Assembly: GCA_017991595.1 (NCBI GenBank)
Contig: JAGOQJ010000003.1
Coordinates: forward strand, 124,001 to 188,000
DNA from: Candidatus Didemnitutus sp.
Lineage (GTDB): Bacteria; Verrucomicrobiota; Verrucomicrobiia; Opitutales; Opitutaceae
Reading direction: 5' to 3'
DNA: 64,000 nt
In this document: positions 34,570 through 64,000 of the stretch, one piece after another
How the letters are laid out: each line of letters opens with the position of its first letter
How positions within the stretch are numbered: position 1 is the first letter of the stretch
The notes under the pieces: generated by a model
What the model saw: the letters and a program-made list of their open reading frames with translations, nothing else
Told to the model about the DNA's origin: nothing
The model's database searches: none
Made by a program: the position numbers and the translations under genes

Positions 34570-35104
34570 AAATCCAGCGCTGGCCGAAGGCGCGGTTCTT
34601 GATCGTGTCGGGCCAGTTGCCGAGGCCGCGCACGTAGAGATGGTCGTCGAGCAAGGCGTCCCAGTCGGCGCGTAACACGGCGGCGGCGAAGGCGCGGTTC
34701 ACCTGCGCGACGCCCTCGGTGTAGGCGTGGTCGACGAGCAATTCCTGCTGCGTGCGGTCGAGCGCGGCGAAGGGGCGGTCGGGAAACTCGCGCGCGAGCC
34801 ACGTTGCCAGTTCCGCGGCGGTGGCGGCGAGTCCGGAGCGGAGGTGCTGATCGGCGGCGGCGGGTGTTTCGCCGGCGCGGTAAAGTGCCGTGTCGCCGAC
34901 CGCGCGACCGTAGCCGATGCGGCGGCCGTAGCGCGTGGAGTAGGGGAAGAATTTTCCGTCCCGCCGCCCGAAGTCGTGCGGGTTTGTGACGCTCTTCATG
35001 TAGGCGACAAAGTCGTCGGTGAGCGGAAAGGACTCGGCGGCCGACGCGGACACGCCGCCGAGGCAGGCGAGCGCGAGCAGGAGAAGGCGATGCAGCGGCT
35101 TCAT
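34523..35104 (-). CDS. small secreted lysozyme-like protein
   Basis: A 193-residue exported protein (signal MKPLHRLLLLALACLGGVSASA). The stretch DGKFFPYSTRYGRRIGYGRAV followed by RAGETPAAADQHLRSGLA and QQELLVDHAYTEGV resembles the GH24 phage-type lysozyme layout (substrate loop YxxxxGxxTIGYG, then a helix). I cannot point to a sure catalytic Glu, so a muramidase activity is uncertain. It is clearly homologous to the protein at 42644; both are directly next to a member of the ~1000-residue family, here in the reverse operon with an ATGA overlap at its 5' end. A shared role with the large partner, such as local peptidoglycan opening for export, is a guess. Confidence 0.6.
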   Translation of the reverse strand: MKPLHRLLLLALACLGGVSASAAESFPLTDDFVAYMKSVTNPHDFGRRDGKFFPYSTRYGRRIGYGRAVGDTALYRAGETPAAADQHLRSGLAATAAELATWLAREFPDRPFAALDRTQQELLVDHAYTEGVAQVNRAFAAAVLRADWDALLDDHLYVRGLGNWPDTIKNRAFGQRWIYGDKTKALRPLPRAG

Positions 35105-38070
35105 GGGCGGAGCGTGACGGCGGGAGCGTGTTCGACGCGTTGGGCGGCGGTCTCGACCGCGAAGTCGAGCTCGAGCGGGCCGGCGCCCTCGGTGTAGGGC
35201 GGCGAGAATTCGTAGGGGAAAATCGCGTCGTGCAGTTCCATCCATTCGCCGTCGCCCTGCCGGTAGCGCAGCGTGGCGGAGATGGTGTCGTCGGGCAGCG
35301 CGTCGGTGTAGACGAAGGCGCTGGTGAGGCCGCGGCCGGGCGAGAGCAGCTGGGCGTAGACGCGGCCGAACGGCGCCTGCACCTGCGCGAAGCTTTGCGG
35401 GCCGAGCGGCGCGGATGTCGGATCGAAGAGTTTCGCGTGCAGCTGCGTGCGGACGCGCGCGCCCTCGAGCGCGAAGGCGACGATGCCCTTCGCGGGCACG
35501 CGCACGGTGAGCGCGGCGGCGTCGAAGGGTTGCGGGCCGGTGGAGCGGTTGTCGCGCCAGATCTCCATGCGCGTGACGCCGCTCAGGTCGACGCGCGCAG
35601 GGTCGAGCGCGACGGCGAGCGTCTCTTCGGTGAAGGACTGGTTCCAGAACGCGAGGTAGAGTTTTCCGTTGCCGTGGCCGGCGAGGTAATCGAAGGCCCG
35701 GTGCTCGCTCGTGACGAGGCGGCGCGGCAGCCAGAGATGCACGCCGCGCTCGCCGTGGAACGTGCCGGGGCGGTCGCCGTAGGCGCGGCAGCGGAAGGAC
35801 GTGCCGGGCATCGGCCGGCCGGGGAAATCGATCGCACCGCGCGAGCGGTGGAAGGCGTCGCTGACGAGGAAGTCGATCACCTCGCCGGCGAATTCCCAGG
35901 CGTGGCCGGGATTCACGGTGGCGAAATTCCAATCCCAGATTGGCCGCTCGATGGCGTCGGCGCTCTCTGGGATGAGCGACAAGTTGGAGCGGTTGTCGCC
36001 GGGATAATTGCCGAAGCGACCGACCATGCCCCAGCGCGCGATGTCGCGCAGGAAATCGTCCTGCGCGAGTGCGGCGAGCCGCAGGAGCTGGCCGTGATGG
36101 TTCATCCAGTATTCGCCGCGGTAGGCGGGCGACTGCAGGCCGGTGAGCGAGAGGCGCCACGCGGGCACGCTTTGCTCGGGCGACGGGACGCCGCGCGGCG
36201 GTTGGAAACCCCAGAGGCGGTGGCGGCCGAAGGAATGCTCGTGCACTGCGACTCGGCCGCCGGCGTCGGCGACGAGTGTGCCGTCCGGCGTGGCGGGCGA
36301 GAGGTTGATCGTGGTGCTGAGGCCGTAGGCGCCTTCCTGCGCGGCGCCGAGGTAGCGTGGCTCGCCGGTGGCGAGGTAGAGTTCGAGCCAGTCGAGGTAG
36401 TCGTCGCCTTCTCCGGTCGGGCGGCGCTGTTTCAGCTCTGCGTCGGCGGCGCGGCGGGCGGCGGCGAGGTCGGCGGGGTCGCCGGTGAGTTCGTGGCGGG
36501 CGAGGAGGGCGGTGAAGTCCTTCGCGTCGAAGCCGGCCTTCCGCGCGGCGGCGGCGATGAGCGGCGTGCGGTGGCCGTAGAAGCCCGCGAGTTGCACGAG
36601 TTGCGCGGCGTTGAGGTAGGGGCGGCCGAGCTCGCGGTTGCGCGCCTTCACCTGACCGTTCTGCTCGACCTCATAGGGCGCGAAGGTGTTGTTGGCCCGC
36701 GAGAGCGCGAATTCGACCTGCGGCAGCGCGCGCGACCAGTAGAAGTCCTCGTCGTCGGTGACGATCGCGGCGCCGAGACCGAAGAGCGGCGAGAAGGGTT
36801 TGAAGATGCCGGAGTTGTCCGTCCAGTAGTCGTAGTATTTCTGCTCGGCGTGCCAGAGGGCGCGGTTGCCGCCGCGGCGGTCGGCGAGAAAATCCATCGT
36901 CGCCTCGAGCGTGCGGTTGAGGGAGCCGGGGCCGGAGTTGTCGCGCTGGTCGCGGAAGCCCGCGTGCGTGCGCGCGAGGTAAACGTAGGTGTCCTTCCAA
37001 TCTCCCGGGCGCACGATGCAATGCAGCGCGAAGGTGCGCACGTCGCCGGCGGCGAGGCGGGATTCGGGGCCGCCCATGATCGGTGCGAAAGAAACGGGGC
37101 GGAGCCGGTCGTCGGCGAGCTGCAGCATCAGGCCGAAGCGCGAGTTCTGGCGCACGGGGATGCGGAAGGGCGATTCGCGCGCGTCGACGACCAGTGCGGT
37201 GTTCCACGCGCCGGCGGCGAGGTGCGCGCGCGGGAGGCGGAGGAAGGCTTCGTTGACGAGGTGGTTGAACTGGCGGCGTCCGCGCCCGGCGCATTCCTGC
37301 GGAATGGACAACGCCTGCTTGCGCGGCAAATCGGGCGCGCCGGTGAAGGCGACGGAATACCAACCGGGCGCGTGCGCCACGAGGCGGTGCTCGATCCGCG
37401 GATCGGCGTCGCCGGCGGGCAGCGTGAGCGTGGCGGTGAGCGTGAAGCGTTCGGTCGGCGCGAATTCCCAATGCACGGTGCGGCCGTCGAGGCGGACGCG
37501 TGGGGCCGTGAGATCGGTGCGTTCGCCCGCGAGCAGCGGGTTCGTGGTGCCGCGCGCGTAGGCGCCGCTGACGCGGAGCACAACCTTGCCGGCGTTGTCG
37601 CGGTAGGTCCACGTGCGAGCGCCTTTCGCGTCGGCGGTGACGACGGCGTCGTAGCGCCGCAGCTCGCGCTCGACGGGCGAGGCGAGGCGGCGGTTCAGCG
37701 CGCCGAGTTCCTCCTCGTAGGCGGTCCAGCGCGGCGCGGTGCGAGGCGCGACGTGATAATTCTGGTGGTTGACGTGGTAACCGGGATCACGGTCGCTGCT
37801 CAGCACGGCGAAACGCGGTTGCACCGTCTGCGGCGGCACGCCGTCGACATGCAATGTGACCGTGCCGTCGTCGGCGAGGTCGAGGCGGTAGCGGTCGTTG
37901 GTGAGCGTTGCGGCGTCGAGTGCGGAGGTCGCACACGCCAGTGCGGCGGCGAACGCGAGCGCGCGGCGGAGGGCGGTCGGGACGACCGCCCCTACCGGAG
38001 CACGGCTTGAGCGGAGAGCGGGACCAACGTCAGCGAGGTGCACGGCCGAAGGCGGTGAATTCGAGGACAC
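35101..38070 (-). CDS. large secreted protein of unknown function, subtype A
   Basis: A 989-residue exported protein. The N-terminus is unusual: about 33 residues precede the signal core (RRALAFAAALACATSALDA), and part of it (APVGAVVPTAL) is encoded by a dispersed hairpin element. The mature part opens with a beta domain (LTNDRYRLDLADDGTVTLHVDG), then an alpha-helical region with LWHAEQKYYDYWTDNSG, VTDDEDFYWSRALPQVEFALSRANNTF, VPAWRLSLTGL, NPGHAWEFAGEVIDFLVSD, GAIDFPGRP and AYGDRPGTFHGERGVHLWLPR, and a C-terminal beta region. This is the layout of an (alpha/alpha)-toroid enzyme flanked by beta domains, as in several polysaccharide lyases and hydrolases, but I know no named family with this signature. 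Closest relative in the window is 43262. Its ends overlap its neighbours. Confidence 0.75.
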   Translation of the reverse strand: MSSNSPPSAVHLADVGPALRSSRAPVGAVVPTALRRALAFAAALACATSALDAATLTNDRYRLDLADDGTVTLHVDGVPPQTVQPRFAVLSSDRDPGYHVNHQNYHVAPRTAPRWTAYEEELGALNRRLASPVERELRRYDAVVTADAKGARTWTYRDNAGKVVLRVSGAYARGTTNPLLAGERTDLTAPRVRLDGRTVHWEFAPTERFTLTATLTLPAGDADPRIEHRLVAHAPGWYSVAFTGAPDLPRKQALSIPQECAGRGRRQFNHLVNEAFLRLPRAHLAAGAWNTALVVDARESPFRIPVRQNSRFGLMLQLADDRLRPVSFAPIMGGPESRLAAGDVRTFALHCIVRPGDWKDTYVYLARTHAGFRDQRDNSGPGSLNRTLEATMDFLADRRGGNRALWHAEQKYYDYWTDNSGIFKPFSPLFGLGAAIVTDDEDFYWSRALPQVEFALSRANNTFAPYEVEQNGQVKARNRELGRPYLNAAQLVQLAGFYGHRTPLIAAAARKAGFDAKDFTALLARHELTGDPADLAAARRAADAELKQRRPTGEGDDYLDWLELYLATGEPRYLGAAQEGAYGLSTTINLSPATPDGTLVADAGGRVAVHEHSFGRHRLWGFQPPRGVPSPEQSVPAWRLSLTGLQSPAYRGEYWMNHHGQLLRLAALAQDDFLRDIARWGMVGRFGNYPGDNRSNLSLIPESADAIERPIWDWNFATVNPGHAWEFAGEVIDFLVSDAFHRSRGAIDFPGRPMPGTSFRCRAYGDRPGTFHGERGVHLWLPRRLVTSEHRAFDYLAGHGNGKLYLAFWNQSFTEETLAVALDPARVDLSGVTRMEIWRDNRSTGPQPFDAAALTVRVPAKGIVAFALEGARVRTQLHAKLFDPTSAPLGPQSFAQVQAPFGRVYAQLLSPGRGLTSAFVYTDALPDDTISATLRYRQGDGEWMELHDAIFPYEFSPPYTEGAGPLELDFAVETAAQRVEHAPAVTLRP
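37969..37995. repeat. GGA-loop hairpin element in a signal-peptide region
   Basis: The 9-bp perfect arm GGGCGGTCG pairs with CGACCGCCC around a GGA loop and is followed by CCTACC. It lies inside the N-terminal coding region of the subtype A gene and reads APVGAVVPTAL there. Confidence 0.65.
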
Positions 38071-39556
38071 CGATCTGCACGCCGGCGGGCGCGCCGACGA
38101 TCTCCAGTTTCAAGCGCCGCGCGAGCACGGGCGCGAAGGTCCGGTAATCGATGACGAGATCGGTCGTGTTGCCGCTGCAATCCAGCGCGACCTGCCAGGT
38201 GTCGCTGCGCTTGGGTTGATAGAGCAGACGGTAGCGCACGGGGCCGCCGAGGATGTTCTGCTTGTGGTCGAGGTTGGGCTCGGCCCAGAGCAGACGGATG
38301 CCGGCGACGTCGTAGGTGGTCTTGAGGTCCACGATGAGCGACGGGTTGGCGTCGTCGGGCGCGGGCTGCCACCAGGTGCGCGCGCTGTCGTCGATCGCGT
38401 AGTCGGCGGTGCGGCCGGACGCGACGCTGCTGCCTTGGGCGATGGTGCGGACGCTGACGGGCAGCCAGCCGGCTTCGTTGCCCTTGTCGGGATGAGGGTT
38501 GGTGCCGGGTGCGAGTTGCGGGACATCGCGCACAGGCAGGCCGACGAGATCGCCGTCGGCGTCGATGCCGACGGGGTAGAGGCCGACGCGGCGTTCGAAG
38601 ACATGGTAGTTGCCCACGACGCTCGTGACGAAGGCCCAGAGCGTGTGGTTCGGGCCGCGCACGATGGAGCCGTGGCCGGCGCCCGGGACGACGCCGGTGG
38701 TTTTGCGCAGGACGGGGTTTTTCGCCTGATACGTGAAGGGGCCGAGCGGCGACTTGCCCTTGTAGGCGCCGAGCGCGTAGGTGCCGAGCGCGGTGCCGGG
38801 GCCGGTGAAGGTGAGGTAGTAGGTGTCGCCGTGTTTGAACATCCAGCCGCCCTCCATGAAGCTGCGGCGCGGGTCCTCGTTGTATTCGCCGTAGTGCTCC
38901 CACTCCTGATCGGGGCGGAACGCGGCGAGCTTTTGCGGCACGCCGACCATGCGCGTGGGCTGGGCGGAGTTCAGCTCGACGCCCACGAGGTCGCCGGCGA
39001 CATGGTAATAGAGATAGAGCCGGCCGCCGTCGGAGAACAGCATCGGATCGAAGATGACGCGGTCGATCGGGTTCGTGCCGTCGGCGGCCGTGATCGGACC
39101 GAGCGAACGGAAGGGCCCGAGCGGGCCGTCCGCGACGTAGAGCTCCGAGAAACAGCCGACGAGGTAGAACTTGCCGCCGTGCTCCGCGACGCTCGGCGCA
39201 TAACCGTCGCCGATCTTGCCTGGCGTGACGTCGACCTTGCGCCACGTGATGAAATCCTCGCTCACGTAGGCCATCGCGACAGACGGATACATGATCCACT
39301 TGCCGTCGTGGTAAATGACGGACGGATCGGCGAGCTCGCGGAAGTCCTGCACGTAGCCCTTCAGCCAGCGGTCGAGCGAAGGCGAGGGCTTCTGCGTCCA
39401 GTTGCCGAGCGGGTAATTGGGCAACGGCAGCGGATTCACGAACGTGTTGGCCAGCGGACCGGCCGGCGCGGGCGGCGGAGGCGCGGCGAAGGCTGGTGCG
39501 CAGGCTGCGAACGCGAGGGCGGCGAGGGAGAGGAGGCGCGGCATGGCGGGACTCAT
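38030..39556 (-). CDS. GH43-like glycosidase with F5/8 (CBM32-like) domain
   Basis: A 508-residue exported enzyme (signal MPRLLSLAALAFAACAPAFA). The five-bladed propeller of GH43 is suggested by ADPSVIYHDGKWIMYPS near the start, FDPMLFSDGGRLYLYYH, RSFMEGGWMFKHGDTYYLTF and GHGSIVRGPNHTLWAF; the Asp-Asp-Glu trio of the family can be placed in the first three. From about 360 an F5/8 type C domain follows (SGRTADYAIDDSARTWWQPA ... LLYQPKRSDTWQVALDC). GH43 enzymes release arabinose, xylose or galactose from side chains, and the attached module binds such sugars. I chose the ATG at 39556, which overlaps the upstream stop as ATGA; 39544 is also possible. Confidence 0.82.
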   Translation of the reverse strand: MSPAMPRLLSLAALAFAACAPAFAAPPPPAPAGPLANTFVNPLPLPNYPLGNWTQKPSPSLDRWLKGYVQDFRELADPSVIYHDGKWIMYPSVAMAYVSEDFITWRKVDVTPGKIGDGYAPSVAEHGGKFYLVGCFSELYVADGPLGPFRSLGPITAADGTNPIDRVIFDPMLFSDGGRLYLYYHVAGDLVGVELNSAQPTRMVGVPQKLAAFRPDQEWEHYGEYNEDPRRSFMEGGWMFKHGDTYYLTFTGPGTALGTYALGAYKGKSPLGPFTYQAKNPVLRKTTGVVPGAGHGSIVRGPNHTLWAFVTSVVGNYHVFERRVGLYPVGIDADGDLVGLPVRDVPQLAPGTNPHPDKGNEAGWLPVSVRTIAQGSSVASGRTADYAIDDSARTWWQPAPDDANPSLIVDLKTTYDVAGIRLLWAEPNLDHKQNILGGPVRYRLLYQPKRSDTWQVALDCSGNTTDLVIDYRTFAPVLARRLKLEIVGAPAGVQIGVLEFTAFGRAPR

Positions 39557-42441
39557 TTGAGCAGCACGCGACCGACGGGGGATTTTTCCACGCGACCGTC
39601 GCGCAACTCCACCTCGACGTAGAACTCGACGGGCGCGTCGCCCGCCGTGGGGATCGTGTAATCGAACGGGTAGGCGCGATCCTCGCGCGCGGTGTAGGCG
39701 CCGTCGCCCTGCCGATGATGCAGCGTGCAGCGTACGATCTCGCGCTCGAAGTCGGGCAGGTAGGCGTAGATGCTGGTGAGATCGCCGGCGCCGAAGCGCA
39801 TCGCCACGGCGCGCGCGCCGCGGAAGCCGAGCTCGCACACGCTGCCCTTGGCCGGGAGCGGCGGCACGTCGCGGGCCAGCGCCTGTTGCTGGAAGCGGAC
39901 CTTCGCCTGCGCGCCCTCGATCACGACCGCGCTGACGCCTTCGGGGCTCACCGCGATCTCGAAGCTGCCGTCGGCGGCGGGCGTCGCGACCGGGCCGGGC
40001 TGGCCGTCGTGCCAGACGCGCAGGCGCGCGTCGGCGGCGAGCGTCACGAGCTCGGGCGCGAGGCGCACGCGGCTCGTCACGGCGGATTTGGACTGGTTGG
40101 TGAACGCGAGGGCGACGCGATTGTCGCCGCGCGCGACGAGGTAGTTGAGCTCCGGATGCGCGACCTGCGCGACGCCGCGCGGCATCCAGAGGTGCAGGCC
40201 GGCGGTGTCGTAGATCTTTCCCGGGCGGTCGCCGTAGATCTTTTGCTGGAGGTAGCCGTAGCCTTCGGCGTAGCGACTCGGGAAATCGATCGCGCCGCGC
40301 GATTTCGCGTAGGCGTCGGACACGAGGTAATCGAGCACGAGCGCGATCTGCGGCCAGATGTGGTTGTAGTGGATGGACGTCATCGCGTTCAGCTCGTCCT
40401 TCGGGCGCTCGGCGAAGTCGGGCTTCATGTAGGCCGTGGTGCGCGCGGTGTTGAGGTGGTAGCCGGGGAAGCTCGTGTAGCGGCCGATGACGGCGGAGCG
40501 CGCGACGTCGTGCAGGAAGCGGTCGCCGGTGAGCGCGGAGAGGCGCAGCATCCAGGGCGCGTAGCAGGCGAGGAGGATGGCGCGGTGGCCGCGGCTGGTG
40601 CCGGAGGATTCAGGCGTGAGGCCCATCTCGGAAACCAGCCACGCGGGCACGCGCTCCTCGGCGAGCGGCACGCGCGGGAATTTCGGGCCGGAGCGGTAGT
40701 TGGGTGCGAAGCCGCCCTCGTTCACCGTGACTTCGCCGTCGGGGATCGCGGGCGCGAACCAGATGTAGCGCGTGTAGTTGCGCGCGCCCTTGCGGGCCGC
40801 CTCGAGGTAGCGGGCATCGCCGGTGGCTTCGTGGAGTTCGAGCAGCTCGATCCACTGCGGGGCGAACGAGGTCCAGAAGAAGAGTCCGCGCGAGTCAGGG
40901 TCCTCGAAGTTCGCCGGCGGAGTGTCGATGCGCGTGCGGAGATAGTCGTCGGCGTCGCGCTTGGCGCGCTCGAGCCAGGATTTGTCGCCGCTCGCATCGT
41001 AAAGCGCGAGCGAGTTGGCCCAGAAGGCGCCGCGGAGCTCGGAGACGAGGTTGAGCACCCGGTTCTGACCGAAGAGCGACTGCGCGGTCTGGAGAAAGAA
41101 CGGCGTGCGGCCGCCGGCGAGTTCGTGCAGCGCGGCGTATTCGGAGAGCGGGGCGCCGAGGCCGCCGAGGCGCGAGGAGACGGACTGGCCCTTGGCGTTG
41201 GGATCGATCGAGAAGAGGAAGCGTTCGCGTGAGACGAAGAACTCGGCCAGCGGACGCGCGAGGGTGTCGAAGATCACGCGGTCGTCCGTCACGAGGGCGA
41301 GCGAGTAGGGGTGCAGCGCGGAGACGTTCTTCACCGAGCCGGGCACGTCGGTGTCGTAGGCGAAGCCGCGCAGGTCGGCGTTGAAGCGCGCATGTTCGCT
41401 CAGGCCGAATTGCAGCATGCGCTCGAAGGTGGCGTTGAGGGAACCGAGGGCGTTGTGGCGCACGTCGGCGAAGCCGAAGCTCGTGCGCGCGAGGTGCTCC
41501 TGCGTGGCGTCGATGTCGCGATGGGTGACGACGAGCCGGTGGGTGAAGGAGAACCCCGCACCGGCGGCGAGCTTCGAGCCGGCGCCGCCGAGGATGGGCG
41601 CGAACAGCATCGGTTGCGCCTCGCCCGCGCGGTTGCGCAGCGCGACGCCGAAGCGCGAGGTGGCGAAGACCGGCATTGGCTGGAAGGGCAACTCGGCCGG
41701 ATCGGCCATCACGCCGACCGTCACGCCGGCGCGGCGCACGAGCGTGGTGGGGATCGTGAGGCGGGCCGAAGCCTCGAGGTAAGGACCCTCGGGGAAGCGG
41801 CGGTCGGTGTAGATGAGCGGTTGCCAGAGTTCCTCGATCTCCGTCGGCGCGCAGCGCGGCGCGCCCGTGTAACCGAAGGAATACCAGCCCGGCTTCGTCA
41901 CGCGCGCGTGCAGCGTCAGGCGCGGCTCGGCACCGTCGGCCGCCGGCGCGAGCTCGGCGCTGAGGGCGACGCCGTCCGTCTCCGCGAAGGTCCAGAGGAT
42001 GCGGCCGCCCTCCTCGCGCGCGCCGGTGGCGCGCAGCGTCATGAGCTTGCCGGCCTGGAACAAATTGGGCGAGCGACCCGCGCCGTAATGGCGGTCGGCG
42101 TCGGGATCGTAGCCGTCGGCGACATGCTCGTCGGTGACGACGGCGCTCGTCGGCTTGCCCCAAGTGAGAACGTGGTAGATGGAGCCTTGGTCACCGCTCG
42201 CCAGGCCCTTGTCGGTGTAACGGCCCCAGCGGGTCTGGAGGTTCGGGTTTTGCGCCGCGTAAAGCAGGGTGAATTCCGGGGCGAAGCGCGCGCGGGCGCC
42301 GTCGGGTGCGACCACCTCGACCGAGGCGTCCGTCGCGAGGACCAGGCGGTGCGCGGGGGCGGCGGCGTGGCCATGCACAGCCACGAGGGCGAATGAAGTC
42401 AGGACGAGGGCGCGGCGCAGCCAGCAGGGAATCGATAGCAT
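39553..42441 (-). CDS. large secreted protein of unknown function, subtype B
   Basis: A 962-residue exported protein, first gene of the long reverse operon. The signal is MLSIPCWLRRALVLTSFALVAVHGHA. Its plan matches the family: an N-terminal beta domain (FAPEFTLLYAAQNP, FGYTGAPRC), PMPVFATSRFGVAL, FAPILGGAGSKLAAG, LGSLNATFERMLQFG, VPGSVKNVSALHPYSLALVTDD, FWTSFAPQWIELLELHEATGD, GLTPESSG, SIHYNHIWPQIALVLDYLVSD, GAIDFPSRY, YGDRPGKIYDTAGLHLWMPR. It is much closer to the copy at 54774 than to subtype A. Conserved His, Tyr and Asp positions (HYNHIWP, IDFPSR, YGDRPG) are candidate active-site residues. I chose the ATG at 42441 because it starts the signal; a TTG at 42498 is in frame. Operator site 3 is 104 bp upstream. 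Confidence 0.75.
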   Translation of the reverse strand: MLSIPCWLRRALVLTSFALVAVHGHAAAPAHRLVLATDASVEVVAPDGARARFAPEFTLLYAAQNPNLQTRWGRYTDKGLASGDQGSIYHVLTWGKPTSAVVTDEHVADGYDPDADRHYGAGRSPNLFQAGKLMTLRATGAREEGGRILWTFAETDGVALSAELAPAADGAEPRLTLHARVTKPGWYSFGYTGAPRCAPTEIEELWQPLIYTDRRFPEGPYLEASARLTIPTTLVRRAGVTVGVMADPAELPFQPMPVFATSRFGVALRNRAGEAQPMLFAPILGGAGSKLAAGAGFSFTHRLVVTHRDIDATQEHLARTSFGFADVRHNALGSLNATFERMLQFGLSEHARFNADLRGFAYDTDVPGSVKNVSALHPYSLALVTDDRVIFDTLARPLAEFFVSRERFLFSIDPNAKGQSVSSRLGGLGAPLSEYAALHELAGGRTPFFLQTAQSLFGQNRVLNLVSELRGAFWANSLALYDASGDKSWLERAKRDADDYLRTRIDTPPANFEDPDSRGLFFWTSFAPQWIELLELHEATGDARYLEAARKGARNYTRYIWFAPAIPDGEVTVNEGGFAPNYRSGPKFPRVPLAEERVPAWLVSEMGLTPESSGTSRGHRAILLACYAPWMLRLSALTGDRFLHDVARSAVIGRYTSFPGYHLNTARTTAYMKPDFAERPKDELNAMTSIHYNHIWPQIALVLDYLVSDAYAKSRGAIDFPSRYAEGYGYLQQKIYGDRPGKIYDTAGLHLWMPRGVAQVAHPELNYLVARGDNRVALAFTNQSKSAVTSRVRLAPELVTLAADARLRVWHDGQPGPVATPAADGSFEIAVSPEGVSAVVIEGAQAKVRFQQQALARDVPPLPAKGSVCELGFRGARAVAMRFGAGDLTSIYAYLPDFEREIVRCTLHHRQGDGAYTAREDRAYPFDYTIPTAGDAPVEFYVEVELRDGRVEKSPVGRVLLK

Positions 42442-42544
42442 GAGTGACTTGAGTTGGGGATTCGGGACGAGTCGGGCAGGGGAGACCGACCGGGACAACG
42501 CCGACCGCTTACCGTTTTTGCGGCACGCTGGGGAGGCTGCCGCA

Positions 42545-43261: not shown

Positions 43262-46200
43262 ATGCACCCGCACCGCGCTCTGCTCTTTCTCGGCCTCGTT
43301 TTGCTGCTCGGCGGCCCGGCGGTCGCGCAGACTTTCCAGAACGACCGCTACACGCTGACGCTGAACGGCGACGCCACGATCACGGTCGCGGTTGCCGGCG
43401 TCGCGACGCCACACGTGCTCGCGCCGGAGTTTGCCGTGATGTTCAGTGCCACCGCGCCGGGCTTCAACGAGAACCACGACAACTATTACCTCGCACCGCG
43501 CACCTCCCTGCTGTGGACGGCCTACGAGGTCCCGGCGGACGAACTCAACACCACGCTCAACACTCCGGAGTGGCGCACGCAGCTTTCCTACCCGGTGCGC
43601 GTGGAAGGCAGCGGCGCGTCGCGCACCTGGACCTATTACACGAACGACACGCTCTCCGAGGTGAAGCTCGCCATCAGCGGCACCTACGCGCGCGGCACAA
43701 TCGATCCGTTCCGCGCGGGCGTGCGCCACGCGCTGCGCGCCGCCGGCGCGAGCCTCGCGACGACCGCCGACGGCACGACGGTGACATGGACCTTCACCGA
43801 CGATGCGGCGCGGCCCTTCACCTTCAGCGCCAGCCTGCTGCTGCCGCCGGGCGACGAGACGCCGCGCATCGAGACGCGCATCGTCGCGCGCACCGCCGGC
43901 TACTACATGGCGGCGTTCACCGGCGTGCCCGGCGTGGCGTCCGCTGATTACGTCGTCGGTCCGCAGGATGCGCTCGGCGCCAACAACAAGCATTTTAACC
44001 ACGTCGTGTGCGAGGGTCAGCTCATGCTCCCGCGTGCGCAGGTGACCTCGAAGGCCGGCTGGAGCGCGGCCATCGTCATCGATCCCAGTGAAAGTTATTT
44101 CACCGATGCGGCCGGCGATGCCCGCGCGCCGACGCGCGCGAACTCGCGCTTCGGCGTCATGCTGCAGCGGCAGGACGGGCAGATCCGTCCGCTCGCGTTC
44201 GCCCCGTTGCTCGGCGGCGCGGAGTCGCAGCTCGCCGCCGGCGCGGATCATCGCTTCCGCGTGCGCTACGCCGTGCAACCCGGTGGTTGGAAGGAAATCT
44301 ACCGCCACGTCGCCGAATCCGTTTTCCACCTCGACGACCCGCGCGACAATACCGGCACGGGCTCGCTCAACCGCACCTTCGAGCGCGTGATGGATTACCT
44401 CGCCGACCGCAACGGCCGGAACTACGCGATGTGGCACGCGGAGCAGAAATACTACGACTACTTCTCGGACCAGCCCAACTCCTTCAAGCCGTTCTCCCCG
44501 CTCTTCGGGCTCGCGGCGGCCGTCATCACCGACGACGAGGACTTCTACTGGCAGCGTGCGCTGCCGCAGGTGGAGTTCGGCCTGTCGCGCGCGAGCAACA
44601 CCTTCGTGCCCTACGATACCGAGGACACCGGCCTGCTTAGCAACCCGAGCCGCAGTCTCGGTTCGCCTTACCTCAGCTCGGTGCAGCTCGCGAGCCTGCA
44701 CGCGTTTTACCAGCAGCGCGTCGATGCCCTCCGCAGCCTTGCGACGGAGAAGAATTTCTCGACCAGCGTCTTCGCCCAGCTGCTGGCGAAATATGCGCTC
44801 ACCGGCGCGCCGGCCGACCTGACCGCCGCGCTGAACCGCGCCAACGCACGCCTCGTGAGCGATCCGACCGGTTTCAGCGACCACTACATGGACTGGCTCG
44901 ACATCTGGGAGGCCAGCGGCGCGACGCCTGCACAGCGCGATCCGCGCTACCTCGCCGCCGCGCTCAACGGTGCCTACGAATGGGCCGCGCGCACTGCAGT
45001 GCTTTCGCCCGCGGTCCCGGCGACGAGCATCACCGTCGACCGCGGTGGCCGTGCGCCGATCCACGCGCATTCGTTCGGCCGTTGGACGCGGTGGGGTTTC
45101 CCTTTGCCGCTCGGCTATCCGACGCCCGAGCAGACCGTGCCGGCTTGGCGCGTGGCGCTCACCGGCCTCGCCTCCGAGGCTTATCGCGGCGAGTTCTGGC
45201 TCGATAACCACGGCCACCTGATGCGGCTCTCGCATCTCGCGGGCGGCGACACCTTCCTGCGCAGCGTGAGCCGCTGGGCGATGGTCGGGCGTTTTGCGAA
45301 TTACCCCGGCGACAACCGCTCCGTTCCCTCGCTCGTGATCGAGCGCCCCGAATTGCCCGACCAACCGATGTGGCTGCTCAGCCACGCGACAATGAATCCC
45401 GGGCACGCGTGGGAATTCGCGGGCGAGATCCTCGATTTTCTCGTCTCGAACTTCTACGCGCAGTCGGGTGGGGCGATCGATTTTCCCGCGCGTTCGATGC
45501 ACGGCGGCGCGTTCCGCGTGCGGCTTTACGGCGATCGCCCCGGCCGCTTCTACGGCGACGATGGCGTGCGGCTCTGGCTGCCGCGCGGGCTCGCCACGCC
45601 GGACAATCCGCAAGTCGACTACCTCGCCGGCTACGGCAACGGGCGGCTCTATCTCGCCTTCATCAACCAGGCGGCCACACCGCAGACCGTCAGTGTCGCG
45701 CTCGATCCCGCGCGCGTCGGCGCGTGGTCGGGCATGGGCGGACGCCGCTGGGTGAACAACGGAGCGGCCGAGTCGGTGGGTTTCAGCGGCAACACGCTCC
45801 CGGCTTTCACTATTCCGGCGCGTGGCATCGTGGCGTTCGCGCTCGATGGCGTGACGCCGCGCACGGCGCTCCAGCGGCGCATGCTCGACGTCGCGTCGCC
45901 GAAGCTCGGGGCGGCGGCGCTTTCCCGGCAGACTTTCCCCGTCGGGGGCACGACCGCGAAGGTGAACGCGATGCTGCTCTCGCTCGGACGCGGTCTGACC
46001 AGCGCGTTCGTTTACACCGACCTGCTCGCGGAGCGCGTGATCTCCGCGCGCCTGCGCTACCGGCAAGGCAGCGACGCGGCGTGGCAGGAACGCACGGACG
46101 AGATTTTCCCGTTCGAATTTTCCGTGCCGTTCGCGGAGGGCCGAGGCGCCTTCGAGGCTTACCTTGATTTGACCGTGCCCGACGCCGAGCTCGGCTCCGT

Positions 46201-48253: not shown

Positions 48254-48361
48254 TGCCGTGACCTTGTGCACGACGCTCGCCCGGGCGCTAATCGCGCCGT
48301 TATCTCGGTCTCCCGCTCGGCGGGGCACGCCTCTCACCCAAACCCTCACCCCCATCGCATC

Positions 48362-50787: not shown

Positions 50788-50803
50788 GCGTCCGCGACGT
50801 GGC

Positions 50804-53114: not shown

Positions 53115-53143
53115 GCGCGGATTGCGGCGGGACGAGGCAGGAA

Positions 53144-53158
53144 AGTCAACGGTAGACC
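53144..53158. promoter_or_regulatory. candidate LacI operator, site 6 (lacI promoter)
   Basis: AGTCAACGGTAGACC, 30 bp upstream of the GTG start of the regulator gene. It points to autoregulation. It is also in the gap shared with the divergent galK gene. Confidence 0.62.
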
Positions 53159-53314
53159 GATTTCCGGCCGGAGAATCCCCGGCGCACACTCCGAGCGCTC
53201 CTGGCCGAGTGAAAAACCGCGCGCGCGATGACGCACGGCGTGGCGCCGCGCGGCGCAAATGGGTTTGCCGCGTCCGCGCAGTTGTATGCGAATCGCGCGC
53301 CGTTTTTCCCCATC

Positions 53315-57651: not shown

Positions 57652-59064
57652 ATGCGCAAGATTCCTCATTTCCGTTGGTGGATCATCACGCTGGTGTTCC
57701 TCGCCGCCGTGTTGAACTACGTCGACCGGCAGGTCCTCTCGGCGCTCGCGCCGACGATTCAGAAGGACCTCGGGATGACCGATCGCGACTACGCGAACAT
57801 CGTCAATATCTTCCTCGTCGCCTACACGATCGCGTATCTGATCTCGGGCAAGCTTGTGGACATGCTCGGCACGCGCGTGGGCATGGTGCTCTTCGTCGGT
57901 TGGTGGTCCGTCGCCAACATGCTCACTGCCGCGGCGCAAGGCGTGCGTTCGATGGGCGGCTTCCGTTTTGCCCTCGGCCTCGGCGAGGCGGGCGTCTGGC
58001 CCGCGGCCTCGAAGGTCGTTTCCGAGTGGTTCCCCGCGCGCGAGCGCGCGCTGGCCATCGGCGTTTACACGATGGGCGCCACCATCGGTGCCACGGTCGC
58101 GCCCTACATCGTCATCCCGCTGGCCGCCTATCCCTACGCGGAGAAATTGCCCTTCCTGAACGATCTCATCGGCCACGGCATCGGCTGGCGCATGGCTTTC
58201 ATCATCACGGGCGGGCTCGGTCTGCTCTGGCTCATCCCGTGGCTCTGGTTCTACCGCCAGCCGCGCGAGAGCAAGCTGGTCACGGACAAGGAACTTCAAC
58301 TGCTCGACCAATCCGCGGCCGACGAGGCCAAGGCCGGCGGCGCGACTTCCGGCGCCGCGTGGACGTGGAAGCAGGTTTTCACCAGCAAGGTCGTGTGGCT
58401 GCTGCTCATCGGCCGCCTCATCACCGATCCGGTCTGGTATTTCTACCAGTTCTGGTTCCCGAAATACTTGAATGCCGAGCGCGGCTTCGAACAGGGCCAG
58501 CTCACCATCACGTGGGTGGTCTATGCCGCGGCCGGCGTCGGCAGTCTCCTCGGCGGCTGGCTTTCGGGCGTGCTCGTGAAACGCGGCATCGCTCCCGCGC
58601 GGAGCCGCCTCTGGATCATGCTCGGTTGCGCGTGCCTGCTGCCGGTCTCGCCTTTCATCGCGAAGGCCGCGGGCGTGAACGTCGCCCTGACACTCACCGT
58701 CGTCGCCGTCTTCGCCTCGCTGGCTTGGCTGATCAACATCAGCTCGCTCGTCGTCGACGTCGTGCCCAAGGCCTGCCTCGGCACGGTGTTCAGCGTCGTC
58801 GCCGCGGGCAGCACCGTCGGCGGCATCCTCATGAACACGCTCGTGGCCTCGATGGTCTCGTCGGGTCCGTTGACCAAGCCCGCGGGCTTCCTCGATCAAG
58901 CCGTCCACTCCGTGCTCGGCCCCGTCCTCGATGCGGTCCACGGCACCGGCTACGCGCAATGGTTCCTCATCATGGCCTGCCTGCATCCGCTCGCGTGGGC
59001 GATGCTCTACTTCGGCGGCGTGCACCGCACCGCGCCCAAGACCCCCGCTCCCGCCGCCGCGTAA
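57652..59064 (+). CDS. MFS transporter, ExuT-like anion:cation symporter family
   Basis: A 470-residue inner-membrane carrier with twelve predicted membrane segments. The N-terminus FRWWIITLVFLAAVLNYVDRQVLSALAPTIQKDLG, the segment AYTIAYLISGKLVDMLGTRVG and FRFALGLGEAGVWPAASKVVSEWFP are characteristic of the ACS group, which includes hexuronate and sugar-acid carriers. It is therefore a good candidate for import of a uronate or an unsaturated or oxidised sugar made by the neighbouring enzymes. A GGAG site lies within the end of the upstream gene and only 4 bp separate the genes, so they are co-expressed. Substrate is inferred from family, not shown. Confidence 0.85.
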   Translation: MRKIPHFRWWIITLVFLAAVLNYVDRQVLSALAPTIQKDLGMTDRDYANIVNIFLVAYTIAYLISGKLVDMLGTRVGMVLFVGWWSVANMLTAAAQGVRSMGGFRFALGLGEAGVWPAASKVVSEWFPARERALAIGVYTMGATIGATVAPYIVIPLAAYPYAEKLPFLNDLIGHGIGWRMAFIITGGLGLLWLIPWLWFYRQPRESKLVTDKELQLLDQSAADEAKAGGATSGAAWTWKQVFTSKVVWLLLIGRLITDPVWYFYQFWFPKYLNAERGFEQGQLTITWVVYAAAGVGSLLGGWLSGVLVKRGIAPARSRLWIMLGCACLLPVSPFIAKAAGVNVALTLTVVAVFASLAWLINISSLVVDVVPKACLGTVFSVVAAGSTVGGILMNTLVASMVSSGPLTKPAGFLDQAVHSVLGPVLDAVHGTGYAQWFLIMACLHPLAWAMLYFGGVHRTAPKTPAPAAA

Positions 59065-59106: not shown

Positions 59107-61395
59107 ATGCAAATCGAATCTCCCGTCTCACACCGTGAGCTCCAACGCGTCTGCCTTTCCCCCGACCTCGCGGTCGTGGGCGGAGGGTTGAGCGGCGTCT
59201 GCTGCGCGATTTCCGCCGCGCGCGCCGGGCTCAAGGTCGTGCTGGTCCAGGACCGCCCCGTGCTCGGCGGCAACGCCTCCAGCGAGGTCCGCCTCTGGAT
59301 CCTCGGCGCCACCTCGCACATGGGGAACAACAACCGCTGGGCCCGCGAAGGCGGCGTGATCGACGAGTTGCTCGTCGAGAACACCTACCGCAACCGCGAG
59401 GGCAATCCCTACATCCTCGACACCATCCTCCTCGAGAAGGTCGTCGCCGAGCCCAACATCACGCTCCTCCTGAACACCGCCGTCTTCGAGCTCACCAAGG
59501 GCGACGACGACGCCATCAAGACCGTTCGCGCGTTCTGTTCGCAGAACTCCACCCGCTACGAGATTTCCGCGCCGCTCTTCTGCGACGCCTCCGGCGACGG
59601 CATCGTTGGCTTCATGGCCGGCGCGGCCTTCCGCATGGGCGCCGAGTCGAAAGACGAGTTCGGCGAAAAATTCGCGCCGTCGAAGGAATACGGCGAACTC
59701 CTCGGCCACTCGCTCTACTTCTATTCCAAGGATGCGGGCCGCCCCGTGAAATTCACGCCGCCGTCCTACGCGCTCAAGGACATCACCAAGATCCCGCGTT
59801 ACCGCTCGTTCAACGCGAAGGAATTCGGCTGCCGCCTCTGGTGGGTCGAATACGGCGGTCGCCTCGACACCGTCCACGCCACCGAGGACATCAAGTGGGA
59901 GCTCTGGCGCGTCATCTACGGCGTGTGGAACCACATCAAGAACTCCGGCCAGTTCCCGGAGGCCGAGAACCTCACGCTCGAGTGGGTCGGCACCATCCCC
60001 GGCAAGCGCGAGAGCCGCCGCTTCGAGGGCGACTACATCCTGCGCCAGCAGGACGTGGTCGAGCAGCGCGCGCATGACGACGCGGTCGCCTTCGGCGGCT
60101 GGTCGATCGACCTGCACCCGGCCGACGGCGTCTTCAGCGAGAAGCCCGGCTGCAACCAGTGGCACGCGAAGGGCGTTTACCAGATCCCGTATCGCACGCT
60201 CTACAGCCGCAACATTCCCAATCTCTTCCTCGCCGGCCGCATCATCAGTGCGACGCACGTCGCCTTCGGCTCCAGCCGCGTGATGGCCACCTGCGCCCAC
60301 ATCGGTCAGGCCGTCGGCCTCGCCGCCGCCGAGTGCCACCGCGCCGGTGTCGCCCCGCGCGCGCTCACCGAGCCCGCGCGCATGCGCCAGCTCCAGCGCG
60401 CCCTCCTGCGCACTGGTCAGCACATCCCCGGTCTGCGCCTGCAGGATGCCGAGGATCTCGCCCCGCGCGCGACGCTGTCGGCTTCCAGCGAGTTCAAGCT
60501 CGCAGCCCTCGCGCCCGACGGACCGCTCGTGAAGCTCACCGACGGCTGGGCCATGATGCTGCCGGTCCACTCCGGCACGTCGCTCAATCTCACGCTGCTC
60601 GCCGACGTTGCCGCCGCCGCGGACCTCCGCGTCGAGTTGCGCCAGAGCGACCGCGCTGACAACCACACGCCGAACGTCACGCTCGAGACGATCCGGCTCT
60701 CCTTGGCGCCCGGCTCCAGCCAGCCGCTGCGCCTCCCGTTCCGCCACGTCTTCACCGACGAGCGCTACGCCTTCGTCTGTTTCTTCGGCAATGGCGACAT
60801 CAGCCTCCGCTGCAGCGAGCAGCGCCTCACCGGCGTGCTCTCGCTCTGCCACACGGTCAATCTGGCCGTGGCGAAGTCCGCCGTGCAGCAGCCGACCGAG
60901 GACATCGGCGTCGACACCTTTGAGTTCTGGCAACCGAAACGTCGTCCCGCCGGACACAACCTCGCGCTCGCGCTCGCGCAGCCGCTGGAGTGCTTCGGTG
61001 CGGCCAACGTCGTCAACGGCGTCGCCCGTCCCACCACGCAGCCCAACGCCTGGGTTGCGGATCTCGCCGACGAGCGGCCGACGCTCACGCTGCGCTGGTC
61101 GCAGCCACAGACGATCGCGCGCGTGGAGCTCATGTTCGACACGGATTACGATCACCCGATGGAGTCGGTGCTCTGGGGACATCCCGAGGATCGCATGCCC
61201 TTCTGCGTGCCGGCCTACCGCGTGCTCGACGAGGCGGGCAATGTGCTCGCGTCTGCGACCGGCCACTATCAGACCCGCGCCAGCCTCGTGCTGCCGCAGC
61301 CGGTGAAAACCTCCGCGCTCCGCATCGAGCTCGAACGCCCCGCGGCCCACATCCCCGCGGCGCTCTTCGAGGTGCGCTGCTACGCCTCGGCCTGA
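59107..61395 (+). CDS. FAD-dependent oxidoreductase (FAD_oxidored family) with C-terminal beta domain
   Basis: A 762-residue protein. The N-terminal dinucleotide-binding motif is AVVGGGLSGVCCAISAARAG with VVLVQDRPVLGGNASSE just after; DASGDGIVGFMAGAAFRMG and NLFLAGRIISATHVAFGSSRVMATCAHIGQAVG complete the FAD_oxidored pattern. From about 440 the chain is different: a beta-rich region, then NVVNGVARPTTQPNAWVAD resembling a galactose-binding jelly-roll. No signal peptide is visible, so it is probably cytoplasmic although it carries a sugar-binding-like domain. Genes of this family recur in Verrucomicrobia polysaccharide loci with unknown substrates; oxidation of a sugar or uronate taken up by the preceding transporter is a reasonable guess. 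Confidence 0.82.
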   Translation: MQIESPVSHRELQRVCLSPDLAVVGGGLSGVCCAISAARAGLKVVLVQDRPVLGGNASSEVRLWILGATSHMGNNNRWAREGGVIDELLVENTYRNREGNPYILDTILLEKVVAEPNITLLLNTAVFELTKGDDDAIKTVRAFCSQNSTRYEISAPLFCDASGDGIVGFMAGAAFRMGAESKDEFGEKFAPSKEYGELLGHSLYFYSKDAGRPVKFTPPSYALKDITKIPRYRSFNAKEFGCRLWWVEYGGRLDTVHATEDIKWELWRVIYGVWNHIKNSGQFPEAENLTLEWVGTIPGKRESRRFEGDYILRQQDVVEQRAHDDAVAFGGWSIDLHPADGVFSEKPGCNQWHAKGVYQIPYRTLYSRNIPNLFLAGRIISATHVAFGSSRVMATCAHIGQAVGLAAAECHRAGVAPRALTEPARMRQLQRALLRTGQHIPGLRLQDAEDLAPRATLSASSEFKLAALAPDGPLVKLTDGWAMMLPVHSGTSLNLTLLADVAAAADLRVELRQSDRADNHTPNVTLETIRLSLAPGSSQPLRLPFRHVFTDERYAFVCFFGNGDISLRCSEQRLTGVLSLCHTVNLAVAKSAVQQPTEDIGVDTFEFWQPKRRPAGHNLALALAQPLECFGAANVVNGVARPTTQPNAWVADLADERPTLTLRWSQPQTIARVELMFDTDYDHPMESVLWGHPEDRMPFCVPAYRVLDEAGNVLASATGHYQTRASLVLPQPVKTSALRIELERPAAHIPAALFEVRCYASA

Positions 61396-61497: not shown

Positions 61498-64000
61498 ATG
61501 CTGTCCGCCCCTCGCTTCACCCCTGTCCTGATTGCCTGCCTCGCGCTGGCGAGCGCTGCCGCTCACGCCGTGCAGGAGCCCGCGCCTGCGCTCGAAAGCG
61601 CAGCCATCCGACTCGCGTGGAAGCAGACCGATGCCGGCTGGCAACTCGCCACCGCCGCGGTCCGCACCGTCGACGGCGTGGAGATTCCCGCAGGCGAGCC
61701 CTCGGGGCGTTACACGGTCCTGTATTCGCCCACGTCTCCCGACGCACCCTCGTTGCCGTTTCACCTGCCCGGACACGCGGAACCGTTCCCCGAGCCGTCC
61801 TACATCTACAACACCAAGAAGTGGGAGCAAACGACGAAGCCCGTGGCGCTCAACCTCGCGGGCGAGGAACACGCGCTTTATCCGCGTGACGTGCGGCGCG
61901 GCGCCGATGGCACGCTCACCTTCACGGGAGAGACGCCGGTCGCAACGCTGACGGCCGAATGGCGCCTCGATCCCTGCGCGCCTGGCGATGTCGAGGTTGC
62001 CGTCACGCTCACCGCCAAACGCGATGGCTTCTACTCGCTTGCCACGCCGACGCTCGCGCAACTCGCGCTGCCGGACCTGCAGTGGGCCGTCGTGCCGGGT
62101 TATTTTCAGGGGCGGGAGATCAATCCCAACCTCGTGCTCTCGCTCGTCTATGGTCACGGCTTGCCGGACCGGCCAGTCTTGGTCCGCGAGCGCTCCGCGT
62201 CCACGCTCGCTTCCGTCATGACCAACCGGCAGGGCGTCACGCTCGCGGTCGCAGCCGAGCCCGGCACCGCGGCCGATCCGTGGACGCAGGACCAGAGCAC
62301 GCGCCAAGTCTGGCAACTCGGCCTCTCGCACATGAACCGGCAGGGCCGGCTCTCGCCCACGCTCTACCATCCGGTGCTGGGCGAGGAGGGCTCGCAACTC
62401 GCCGCGGGCGACTCCCGCACCTTCCGCTTTCGCTACGTGCTGCGCCAAGCCGACTGGTTTGCCGCGCTGAAGCACGTCATCACGCACGTCTATCGCCTGC
62501 CCGAGTTCCTCGCGCTCAAGCAGCCGCCCCGCTCCCTCTCGCACCGCCTGCTCGCCTTGCACGATTACGTGGTCGACGACCGCACCTCGCTCTGGCGCAC
62601 GGAGGAGTTCGGCGGCTACACGATCGGTGCGCAGGCTTATCTCGGCGGCATCCTCGGTTCCGACAAGGACGGGATGAAGAACTCCGACTACGGTGCGATG
62701 TGGATGCTGGCGAAGCTCACCGACGATCCGCGCCTCGTGCGCGACCGGCTGCCCTTTGCGCGCAACTTCAAGCTCGTGCAACAGCAGCGCGAGCCCGGCT
62801 TCTTTCAGGGCGCGGCGCTCGGCCAGTATTATCTCTCGAAGAGCCGGCGCTTCACGGAAGAGTGGGGCGACTACGTCGAGCCCGTGGCGCTGACCTATTA
62901 CGTCATGCTCGATCTCGGCAACGTCCTGCTCTTCGCGCCCGGCGACACGGAGCTGCGCGAACGCCTGCGCCTCGCCGCCGACCGCCTGCTCGAGTGGCAG
63001 AAACCCGACGGCAGTTGGGAAGTCGCCTACGATCACCGCACGCAGAAGCCGCTCTTCACCGAGACGCCGGATCTGCGTCCGACTTTCTACGGCCTGCTCG
63101 TGGCGCACCGCATCTTCGGCGACGAAAAATACCTCGCCGCTGCCCGCCGCGGCGCCGATTGGCTGCTGAAGAACGCCGTCGAGCCCGGCCGTTTCCTCGG
63201 CGTGTGCGGCGACAACCGCTTTGCTCCTGACTTCGCCACCGCGCAGATCTCGCAGGCGCTGCTCGATCTTCACGCCATCACGCAGCACGAGCCTTACCGC
63301 GAGGCGGCCATCGCCACCGCGCGCTACTACGTCACGTCGATCTTCACGCATCCGCTCGCCACCGCGGCGAGAAAATCCGTCAAGGGCACGCCGCGTTTCG
63401 ATTGGGAGATCAACCAGTCCGGCCTCGGCTTCGAGCACGGCGGCACCATCGGCTCGGCCGGCGGCGGAGGCCCGATCCTGCTCGCGACGCACGCCGGTTG
63501 GTTCATCCGCCTCTACGCGCTCACCGGCGAGCCGCTCTTCCGCGACCTCGCGCGCGCGGGCGCGATCGCCCGCGACGCCTTCGTGGAGCGCGAGACGAGC
63601 GTTGCCTCTTATTACTGGAACAGCATGGACCGCGGCGCTGGCCCATTCCCGCACCACGCGTGGTGGCAGATCGGCTGGATTATCGACTACCTCGTTTCCG
63701 AGGCCGCGATGCGCACGGCGGGGCAGGTCTCGTTCCCGGCGGGCTTCATCACGCCCAAGGTCGGTCCGCACCGCTGCTACGGCTTCGCGCCCGGCCGTGT
63801 GCTGGGCGAGGCGGCCGAACTCGCCTGGGGTCGCGTCGAATGCGACGAGCCCGCCGTCGAATACCTCGTCGCCCGCGCGACGGACGCGCGTCGCGTCTTC
63901 GTCGTGCTGCTCAACAACCGCACCACCGCCACGCGCGCGCAGGTCAAAGTGCCGGCCGCGACCTTCGCTTCCGGCACCAGCGCCTGGACCGCGGCCCGGT
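61498..64000 (+). CDS. large secreted protein, divergent family member, 3' end outside window
   Basis: An open frame of at least 834 codons from ATG 61498 to the window end, with signal MLSAPRFTPVLIACLALASAAAHA. The N-terminal third is beta-rich (AAIRLAWKQTDAGWQLATAAV, FHLPGHAEPFPEPSYIYNTKKW). The middle is helical, with repeats of toroid type (LADRLLEWQKPDGSW, AARRGADWLLKNAV, AAIATARYYVTSIF). Near the end, PFPHHAWWQIGWIIDYLVSEAAMRTAGQVSFPAGF corresponds to the YNHIWP...LDYLV...IDFPSR segment of the four other large proteins, so it is a distant relative. Conserved aromatic and His positions there may be catalytic. It is fourth in the operon after the oxidoreductase, 102 bp away. Function not known. 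Confidence 0.75.
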   Translation, partial: MLSAPRFTPVLIACLALASAAAHAVQEPAPALESAAIRLAWKQTDAGWQLATAAVRTVDGVEIPAGEPSGRYTVLYSPTSPDAPSLPFHLPGHAEPFPEPSYIYNTKKWEQTTKPVALNLAGEEHALYPRDVRRGADGTLTFTGETPVATLTAEWRLDPCAPGDVEVAVTLTAKRDGFYSLATPTLAQLALPDLQWAVVPGYFQGREINPNLVLSLVYGHGLPDRPVLVRERSASTLASVMTNRQGVTLAVAAEPGTAADPWTQDQSTRQVWQLGLSHMNRQGRLSPTLYHPVLGEEGSQLAAGDSRTFRFRYVLRQADWFAALKHVITHVYRLPEFLALKQPPRSLSHRLLALHDYVVDDRTSLWRTEEFGGYTIGAQAYLGGILGSDKDGMKNSDYGAMWMLAKLTDDPRLVRDRLPFARNFKLVQQQREPGFFQGAALGQYYLSKSRRFTEEWGDYVEPVALTYYVMLDLGNVLLFAPGDTELRERLRLAADRLLEWQKPDGSWEVAYDHRTQKPLFTETPDLRPTFYGLLVAHRIFGDEKYLAAARRGADWLLKNAVEPGRFLGVCGDNRFAPDFATAQISQALLDLHAITQHEPYREAAIATARYYVTSIFTHPLATAARKSVKGTPRFDWEINQSGLGFEHGGTIGSAGGGGPILLATHAGWFIRLYALTGEPLFRDLARAGAIARDAFVERETSVASYYWNSMDRGAGPFPHHAWWQIGWIIDYLVSEAAMRTAGQVSFPAGFITPKVGPHRCYGFAPGRVLGEAAELAWGRVECDEPAVEYLVARATDARRVFVVLLNNRTTATRAQVKVPAATFASGTSAWTAAR

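Follow-up and report, generated by a model that had tools for sequence, protein, structure and literature searches.

Five homologous proteins and their distribution

The DNA analysed here (the window) is a stretch of 64,000 nucleotides from Candidatus Didemnitutus sp. (assembly GCA_017991595.1, contig JAGOQJ010000003.1, positions 124,001-188,000 of the forward strand). It encodes five homologous, apparently secreted proteins of about 870-1120 residues, designated by the lowest coordinate of their coding sequences (Table 1). A preliminary description of the sequence had placed related proteins at these positions, and this was confirmed by the open reading frames (ORFs), by a strong codon-position GC bias, which marks all five as real coding sequence, and by mutual homology. 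The ORF of 54774 opens at 54645 (54645-57647, + strand), and an internal ATG at 54774 is where the hydrophobic leader starts, in agreement with the start proposed earlier. The signal peptides ascribed to all five proteins were judged by eye as leaders. The gene of 61498 continues for 104 bases outside the window (L001:3104).

Table 1. Coordinates of the family genes, of the conserved histidine codons and of neighbouring genes in the window.
Position	Strand	Feature	Remark
30717..31565	-	GDSL-type esterase	
31516..34569	-	GH106 alpha-L-rhamnosidase	
35101..38070	-	Family protein, subtype A	989-residue ORF
39553..42498	-	Family protein, subtype B	
43262..46630	+	Family protein, subtype A	1122 residues
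46970..48124	-	RhaT, L-rhamnose/proton symporter	
48266..50716	+	TonB-dependent receptor	
52014..53258	-	LacI-type regulator	
53228..54463	+	Galactokinase-type GHMP kinase	TIGR00131 above cut-off
54774..57647	+	Family protein, subtype B	Structure predicted; group occurring with FAD_oxidored and importers
56844..56846	+	Invariant His codon	Residue 666 of modelled 54774 chain
57652..59064	+	Major facilitator superfamily (MFS) importer	Below the cut-off of its closest NCBIfam model, the D-galactonate transporter subfamily
59107..61395	+	FAD_oxidored (PF12831) protein	No leader by eye
61498..64000	+	Family protein, subtype C	Window part modelled
63655..63657	+	Matching His codon, subtype C	HHAW motif

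The homology of the five proteins is far beyond chance according to the sequence comparisons. In a search of its own genome, 54774 matched 39553, 35101, 43262 and 61498 with E-values of 1.7e-245, 5.6e-101, 2.6e-81 and 2.4e-15, respectively. The weakest of these links was firm at the profile level: the 61498 and 54774 types matched each other with a probability of 100 and an E-value of 1.8e-51 over 704 aligned columns, and a profile built from nine C-type proteins alone recovered 39553 at 1.6e-24. Two further members, of 1864 and 2019 residues, are encoded on contig C7 of the same genome. As the assembly is 87% complete, the resulting number of seven members is a minimum. The genes of the two C7 members are adjacent (L002:4768-16585); Ig-like repeats, recognised by eye, flank the core on both sides, and other domains are added.

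The search for relatives yielded 99 proteins, the best 80 of which were kept, representing 74 distinct loci. Residue counts and the tree are based on 42 proteins from six groups chosen by hand (A 6, B 13, C 6, D 9, E 2, F 6). In the tree, A (100/100) and C (100/100) formed clades, as did D (100/99), and the B and F rows were intermixed. The grouping of 35101 with 43262 in one subtype was upheld (50% identity, both within clade A), and 61498 was likewise retained as a distant third type in the separate C clade. The pairing of 39553 with 54774 was not: the two share 47% identity, and the tree joins the former with a protein of locus L061 and the latter with one of L016. The five window proteins thus stem from at least four groups. 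Rows of Verrucomicrobiota and Bacteroidota occur together in clade C and also on the branch of 54774, so the subtypes are either old or widely transferred. Subtype D, of about 1150 residues with an N-terminal extension of about 200 residues and HH in place of NH, was not seen in the window (L051:3262-6693, L043:6293-9730, L036:6361-9795). One relative (L058:12800-16615) carries a CBM96 domain and a weak, below-cut-off match to a C-terminal secretion tail.

The distribution of the family is patchy. With two candidates scored per genome, strong matches (E <1e-30) were detected in 18 of 387 Verrucomicrobiota genomes, the own genome counted; 33 passed an E-value of 0.001, 15 of them touching only profile positions 468-591. 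Among the close genomes, the own included, 4 of 57 carry the family with 5-8 matching segments each. In the sample of Bacteroidales, the order of the Alistipes An66 genome, strong members were present in 5 of 344 genomes, and the other 70 of the 75 genomes with matches at E up to 0.05 were weak. According to the record titles of the best 80 of 99 relatives, the carriers comprise Pedobacter, Parapedobacter, Pinibacter, Lunatimonas and Alistipes sp. An66, as well as Acidobacteria, Lentisphaerae, an Alteromonadaceae and a Clostridia metagenome-assembled genome. No family members were found in the viral-contig scan or the plasmid searches.

Sequence searches and predicted fold

The five window proteins all stayed below the curated cut-offs of Pfam (newest models 2025) and NCBIfam (June 2026), and a single-sequence PDB search with two of them gave no match. 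The earlier statement that no known family could be assigned is consequently valid for Pfam and NCBIfam, and for the PDB in the case of the two proteins; a strong profile match to a described family, which would speak against a new one, was not obtained for any of the five in the two libraries. No description of the family was found in a literature search of open-licence PMC papers by listings. It is rather unlikely, given the missed cut-offs and the outcome of that search, that the family is already listed in CAZy, numbered or unclassified, and only seems new. Such a listing would be compatible with either of the catalytic mechanisms considered below. In its favour, the novelty was judged here from Pfam, NCBIfam and the PDB, CAZy families can precede Pfam models, and the carriers include named strains of Pedobacter, Parapedobacter, Alistipes and Lunatimonas.

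The commonest weak match was the catalytic domain of GH127 in Pfam (PF07944), detected in 25 of 46 relatives with a best E-value of 6.4e-06; judged by this E-value alone, a far relative might pass the cut-off. Among the window proteins, 61498 scored 21.3 bits (cut-off 24.9, E 1.5e-04, model positions 71-201 of 376) and 39553 scored 11.0 bits, and the other three gave no match. With GH88/GH105 (PF07470, cut-off 26.6 bits), 61498 and the C-type protein of L051 scored 12.3 and 25.0 bits, respectively. The NCBIfam model of aceric acid hydrolase matched 1 of 46 relatives (4.9e-05). In PDB searches with profiles, the best matches were 4V1R (0.0013) for A4, 4BOK (0.0058) for A5, 4MU9 (2.9e-05) for A6 and 4V1R (0.0016) for A7; the mixed C/D/B profile A6 also matched 4V1R, a mannanase, at 3.0e-04 and 6EX6, a six-hairpin glycosidase, at 0.0013. 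The best matches of A4 and A6 cover only about 105 profile positions or fewer, and the six-hairpin signals fall in the helical part wherever coordinates were shown. The profile matches therefore point to a six-hairpin fold and not to a named family. Membership of a named family by sequence was rejected for Pfam, NCBIfam and the PDB, as the window proteins are below the cut-offs and the six-hairpin signals are partial.

These weak matches are consistent with the proteins being glycoside hydrolases, either a new family with an (alpha/alpha)6 fold or a distant branch of the GH127 type, that would remove sugars from the same polymer as proposed below for a lyase. GH127 beta-L-arabinofuranosidase and the six-hairpin hydrolases (GH88/105, GH76) likewise have a toroid fold, and the weak Pfam and PDB matches lie in the helical part. 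On the other hand, the window proteins differ from these families in staying below the curated cut-offs and matching only partial profiles.

AlphaFold2 models were obtained for two of the five proteins, 54774 (932 residues, 46-row alignment) and 61498 (809 residues of its window part, 19 rows). The pLDDT (predicted local distance difference test) and pTM (predicted template modelling, TM) scores were 92.3 and 0.93 for the former and 78.9 and 0.86 for the latter. In both models, an N-terminal beta-sandwich precedes a 12-helix (alpha/alpha)6 toroid, which is followed by C-terminal beta domains, as the preliminary description had expected with its beta domains around a helical toroid-like core.

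Structure prediction with fold comparison had been proposed at the outset as a check. In the Foldseek search against the PDB, with the best 50 matches listed per model, PL27 led for 61498 at a TM of about 0.3: the top two matches were the PL27 entries 5NOK (3.8e-10) and 5NO8 (7.9e-10), aligned over about 840 columns, and GH94, GH116 and GH65 came next. For 54774, GH101 and further multi-domain proteins had the best E-values, at TM <0.2; 5NO8 was only 49th by E-value (5.0e-04) and had the highest query-normalised TM (0.30) among the 50 listed. GH154 was not named among the 50 matches listed for either model, no search directed at GH154 having been made.

According to an excerpt of PMC8377490, PL27 has an N-terminal beta-sandwich followed by an (alpha/alpha)6 barrel, and PL42 is a beta-propeller. 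The order of the N-terminal domains in the L-rhamnose-alpha-1,4-D-glucuronate lyase BACCELL_00875 (PL27, 5NO8/5NOK), as far as given in that excerpt, is the same as in the predicted models. The rhamnose genes near the window family members are a further likeness to PL27; in contrast, PL27 has 669 residues and the family about 870-1120, with extra C-terminal beta domains. The suggested relation to PL42 was not supported: the excerpt describes a beta-propeller there, unlike the predicted helical toroid with beta domains. The only likeness to PL42/GH145 is the rhamnose-glucuronate linkage that had been proposed as the substrate. GH94, GH116 and GH65 follow PL27 in the matches of the 61498 model with TM values of about 0.2-0.3. 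Their core is a beta-sandwich plus an (alpha/alpha)6 toroid, and they were not seen in the sequence searches of the family.

The suggested relation to PL27 has some support from the top two fold matches of 61498, and no sequence link was found: when the PDB was searched with A4 (at E up to 5) and with the profiles A5, A6 and A7 (up to 10), the chains 5NO8/5NOK were not among the matches. This absence weighs against elimination, as do the low TM values to PL27 (0.28-0.38, with root mean square deviations of 12-16 Å) and the query TM values of 61498 to GH116 (0.29, equal to PL27) and to AGE-type epimerases (0.31). Since the TM to PL27 is low and GH116 and AGE are equal or above, the fold does not single out elimination; for such models, a TM of about 0.3 points to a layout in common and is not proof of kinship. 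Weak Bacteroidales matches of about 700 residues were rejected as a bridge to PL27. Two of them (L114, L127) match the thioredoxin-domain protein 7TKV, two (L113, L132) are 44-51% identical to these thioredoxin-type proteins, and L126 matched nothing useful.

A non-cleaving role, either as a sugar isomerase or epimerase like the AGE-type toroid enzymes or in polymer binding only, is considered very unlikely. The AGE-type match to 61498 reached a target TM of 0.53-0.56 over about 450 columns, and AGE-type epimerases use His chemistry. The leaders, judged by eye, the large beta domains and the several subtypes per genome nevertheless suggest depolymerisation, and the genes lie beside glycoside hydrolases, esterases and TonB-dependent receptors.

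Conserved residues of the toroid

In the numbering of the 54774 model, the twelve toroid helices run from 310-321 through 664-685. The turns between hairpins have 2-6 residues, and the other connections (322-350, 380-406, 433-448, 481-500, 529-599, 625-663) are long. In toroids of this kind, the long loops share one face. Y337, D340, K346, E584 and R627 lie in the long loops and H666 in the opening turn of the final helix, and as judged from the helix list these conserved residues should therefore share the long-loop face.

H666 is invariant in the six subtypes (42 of 42 rows). The relatives' loci were chosen by two patterns, one of which includes this His; the 29 rows of A, C, D, E and F were not so chosen, and two of these, the window A proteins, helped to define the search patterns. 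A basic residue at 627 (Arg/Lys) and an acidic one at 676 (Asp/Glu), the latter within helix 664-685, were also found in all 42 rows. Tyr 337 is present in 36 and Lys/Arg 346 in 33 of the rows.

The acidic residues at the long loops are distributed by subtype. Position 584 is Glu in 37 of 42 rows, and of the 6 A rows 5 lack this Glu, 35101 among them; position 340 is Asp/Glu in 36 and Gly in all 6 C rows, where the alignment may misplace it. D340 and E584, judged from the alignment, possibly form an acidic pair for hydrolysis, which speaks against elimination.

The preliminary description had put forward a shared block of motifs. The Y-G-D-R-P-G and L-W-M/L-P segments were present in four window proteins, as stated there; D-Y-L-V reads DFLV in the two A-type proteins, and I-D-F-P-x-R was found in four of five, 61498 having VSFPAG. 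Across the 42 rows only the glycines of YGDRPG persist (G709 40/42, G713 42/42). Both IDFPxR (690-695) and YGDRPG (708-713) are C-terminal to the last toroid helix of 54774 and not kept across subtypes, and were rejected as the active site. What remains of the block is the His, which is kept across subtypes on the presumed active-site face.

Because of the invariant His and a basic residue, and with no acidic pair common to all subtypes, elimination is mildly favoured; hydrolysis is a credible alternative since acids are common within most subtypes. Lys/Arg 346 is absent from 8 of 9 D rows and from one F row; its lack in the D rows is a point against elimination.

Gene neighbourhood and proposed function

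Neighbours were counted within 8 kb of the main member, with the window genes as queries, in the 38 of 74 loci having at least 4 kb on both sides. FAD_oxidored, a seemingly cytosolic protein, was the commonest of the tested neighbours (22 loci), followed by a second A/B member (11), MFS (10), GH106 (7) and a C-type member (5). In the other 36 loci the numbers were 12, 6, 8, 2 and 1, respectively. Many loci come from related Opitutaceae and hence are not independent. The own genome of 2.88 Mb contains five full-length PF12831 matches above 300 bits, and by our own estimate FAD_oxidored would be expected near a locus by chance in about 3-4% of cases. An importer was found in 17 of the 22 FAD_oxidored loci, MFS in 10 and SSF (sodium:solute symporter) in 7, and no MFS or SSF importer without FAD_oxidored was seen among the 38 well-flanked loci. 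The symporter cluster occurs in ten loci, namely 6 of 9 Bacteroidota loci and L042, L048, L049 and L052. In Pedobacter nanyangensis (L051) the gene order is C, D, GDSL, GH97, B, FAD_oxidored, symporter. In the own genome it is B, MFS, FAD_oxidored, C and then, just beyond the window, a protein 96% identical to the GH97-GDSL fusion of L014. The NCBIfam matches listed for the FAD_oxidored protein cover only its first approximately 100 residues, the FAD-binding segment, and the open-licence PMC papers, searched by listings, gave no described role for this PF12831 subgroup in such loci.

The preliminary description had suggested cleavage of rhamnose-uronate linkages from the company of RhaT, GH106 and an ExuT-like carrier. 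RhaT passed its NCBIfam cut-off (504.3 versus 468 bits) and GH106 was confirmed in the locus. The third gene is best matched by the D-galactonate transporter subfamily (4.6e-62), its 210 bits staying below the cut-off of 395; by sequence this MFS carrier is compatible with sugar-acid transport. Of the proposed context, the carbohydrate-degradation neighbours were substantiated, and rhamnose as a common theme was rejected, GH106 being near 7 of 38 loci versus 22 for FAD_oxidored. Counted by group among the well-flanked loci, GH106 is nearby in 4 of 7 for 39553 and in 3 of 31 for 54774. Across loci, the carbohydrate neighbours include GH106, GH97, GH95, GH43, GH31, GH3, GH2, GDSL, SASA and sulfatase; by sequence cluster, GH95 recurs in 13 loci and GH43 and Gfo/Idh in 11 each.

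Several other features were observed around family genes. Proteins with PSCyt1/PSCyt2/PSD1 and DUF1501 flank B-type genes (L037:5072-9783, L061:19370-21742) in two clusters of five loci each. In the window, an ORF of 335 residues behind the TonB-dependent receptor (50739-51746, +) had no match in Pfam (E 0.01) or NCBIfam (E 0.001). A 986-residue GH16 enzyme with an autotransporter-type PATR repeat is encoded at 26794-29754 (-). The gene of an HsdM-type N6 DNA methylase of type I restriction-modification (24110-26710, -) adjoins a stretch of lower GC (0.61, 20001-24000), which may be an inserted island.

Very probably, the five proteins are secreted enzymes that degrade carbohydrates and belong to a family for which neither Pfam nor NCBIfam has a model of its own. 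As the leading mechanism, we tentatively favour elimination acting on uronate linkages, since PL27 is the first fold match of 61498, the His is invariant and the importer is nearest to the D-galactonate subfamily. Judged from the models, the active site most likely lies on the long-loop face of the toroid around this His. Uronate-containing linkages would be cleaved there by beta-elimination, with the invariant His, aided in most subtypes by Tyr and Lys/Arg, transferring a proton, and each subtype would cut a different linkage. The acidic sugar products would be imported via the MFS or SSF carrier and processed by the cytosolic FAD_oxidored protein, and GH106, GH97, GH95, GH43 and the GDSL/SASA enzymes would trim side groups.

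The scarcity of GH88, the usual companion of uronate lyases, is a point against this scheme: it was found in 1 of 79 neighbour representatives scanned (of 243), with 25 of 121 families listed, and the strong GH88 of the own genome sits on another contig. A hydrolase, in which E584 with D340 or another acid would be catalytic, is judged only slightly less likely than a uronate lyase. The frequency of both acids, the GH127, aceric acid hydrolase and C/D/B profile matches and the GH94, GH116 and GH65 neighbours of the 61498 model argue for hydrolysis; the missed Pfam cut-offs, the partial extent of the PDB matches and the lack of a family-wide acidic pair in the alignment argue against it.

A bolder extension of the uronate lyase reading, which we regard as doubtful, is that the family is a new PL27-fold lyase class of several subtypes. 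Together with an importer of sugar acids and the cytosolic FAD_oxidored enzyme, it would form a conserved module found in several phyla, and uronate imported in unsaturated or oxidised form may be the substrate of the FAD enzyme. If true, acidic sugars would have a redox route in addition to the GH88/105-KduI steps normally used. The module of a B-type protein, importer and FAD_oxidored (17 of 38 loci) provides a handle on the PF12831 subgroup. The labels of the genomes carrying the family include Verrucomicrobiota, Bacteroidota, Acidobacteria and Lentisphaerae, among others. A multi-subtype family whose window members reach no Pfam or NCBIfam model would imply that current annotation overlooks one step in the breakdown of polysaccharides.

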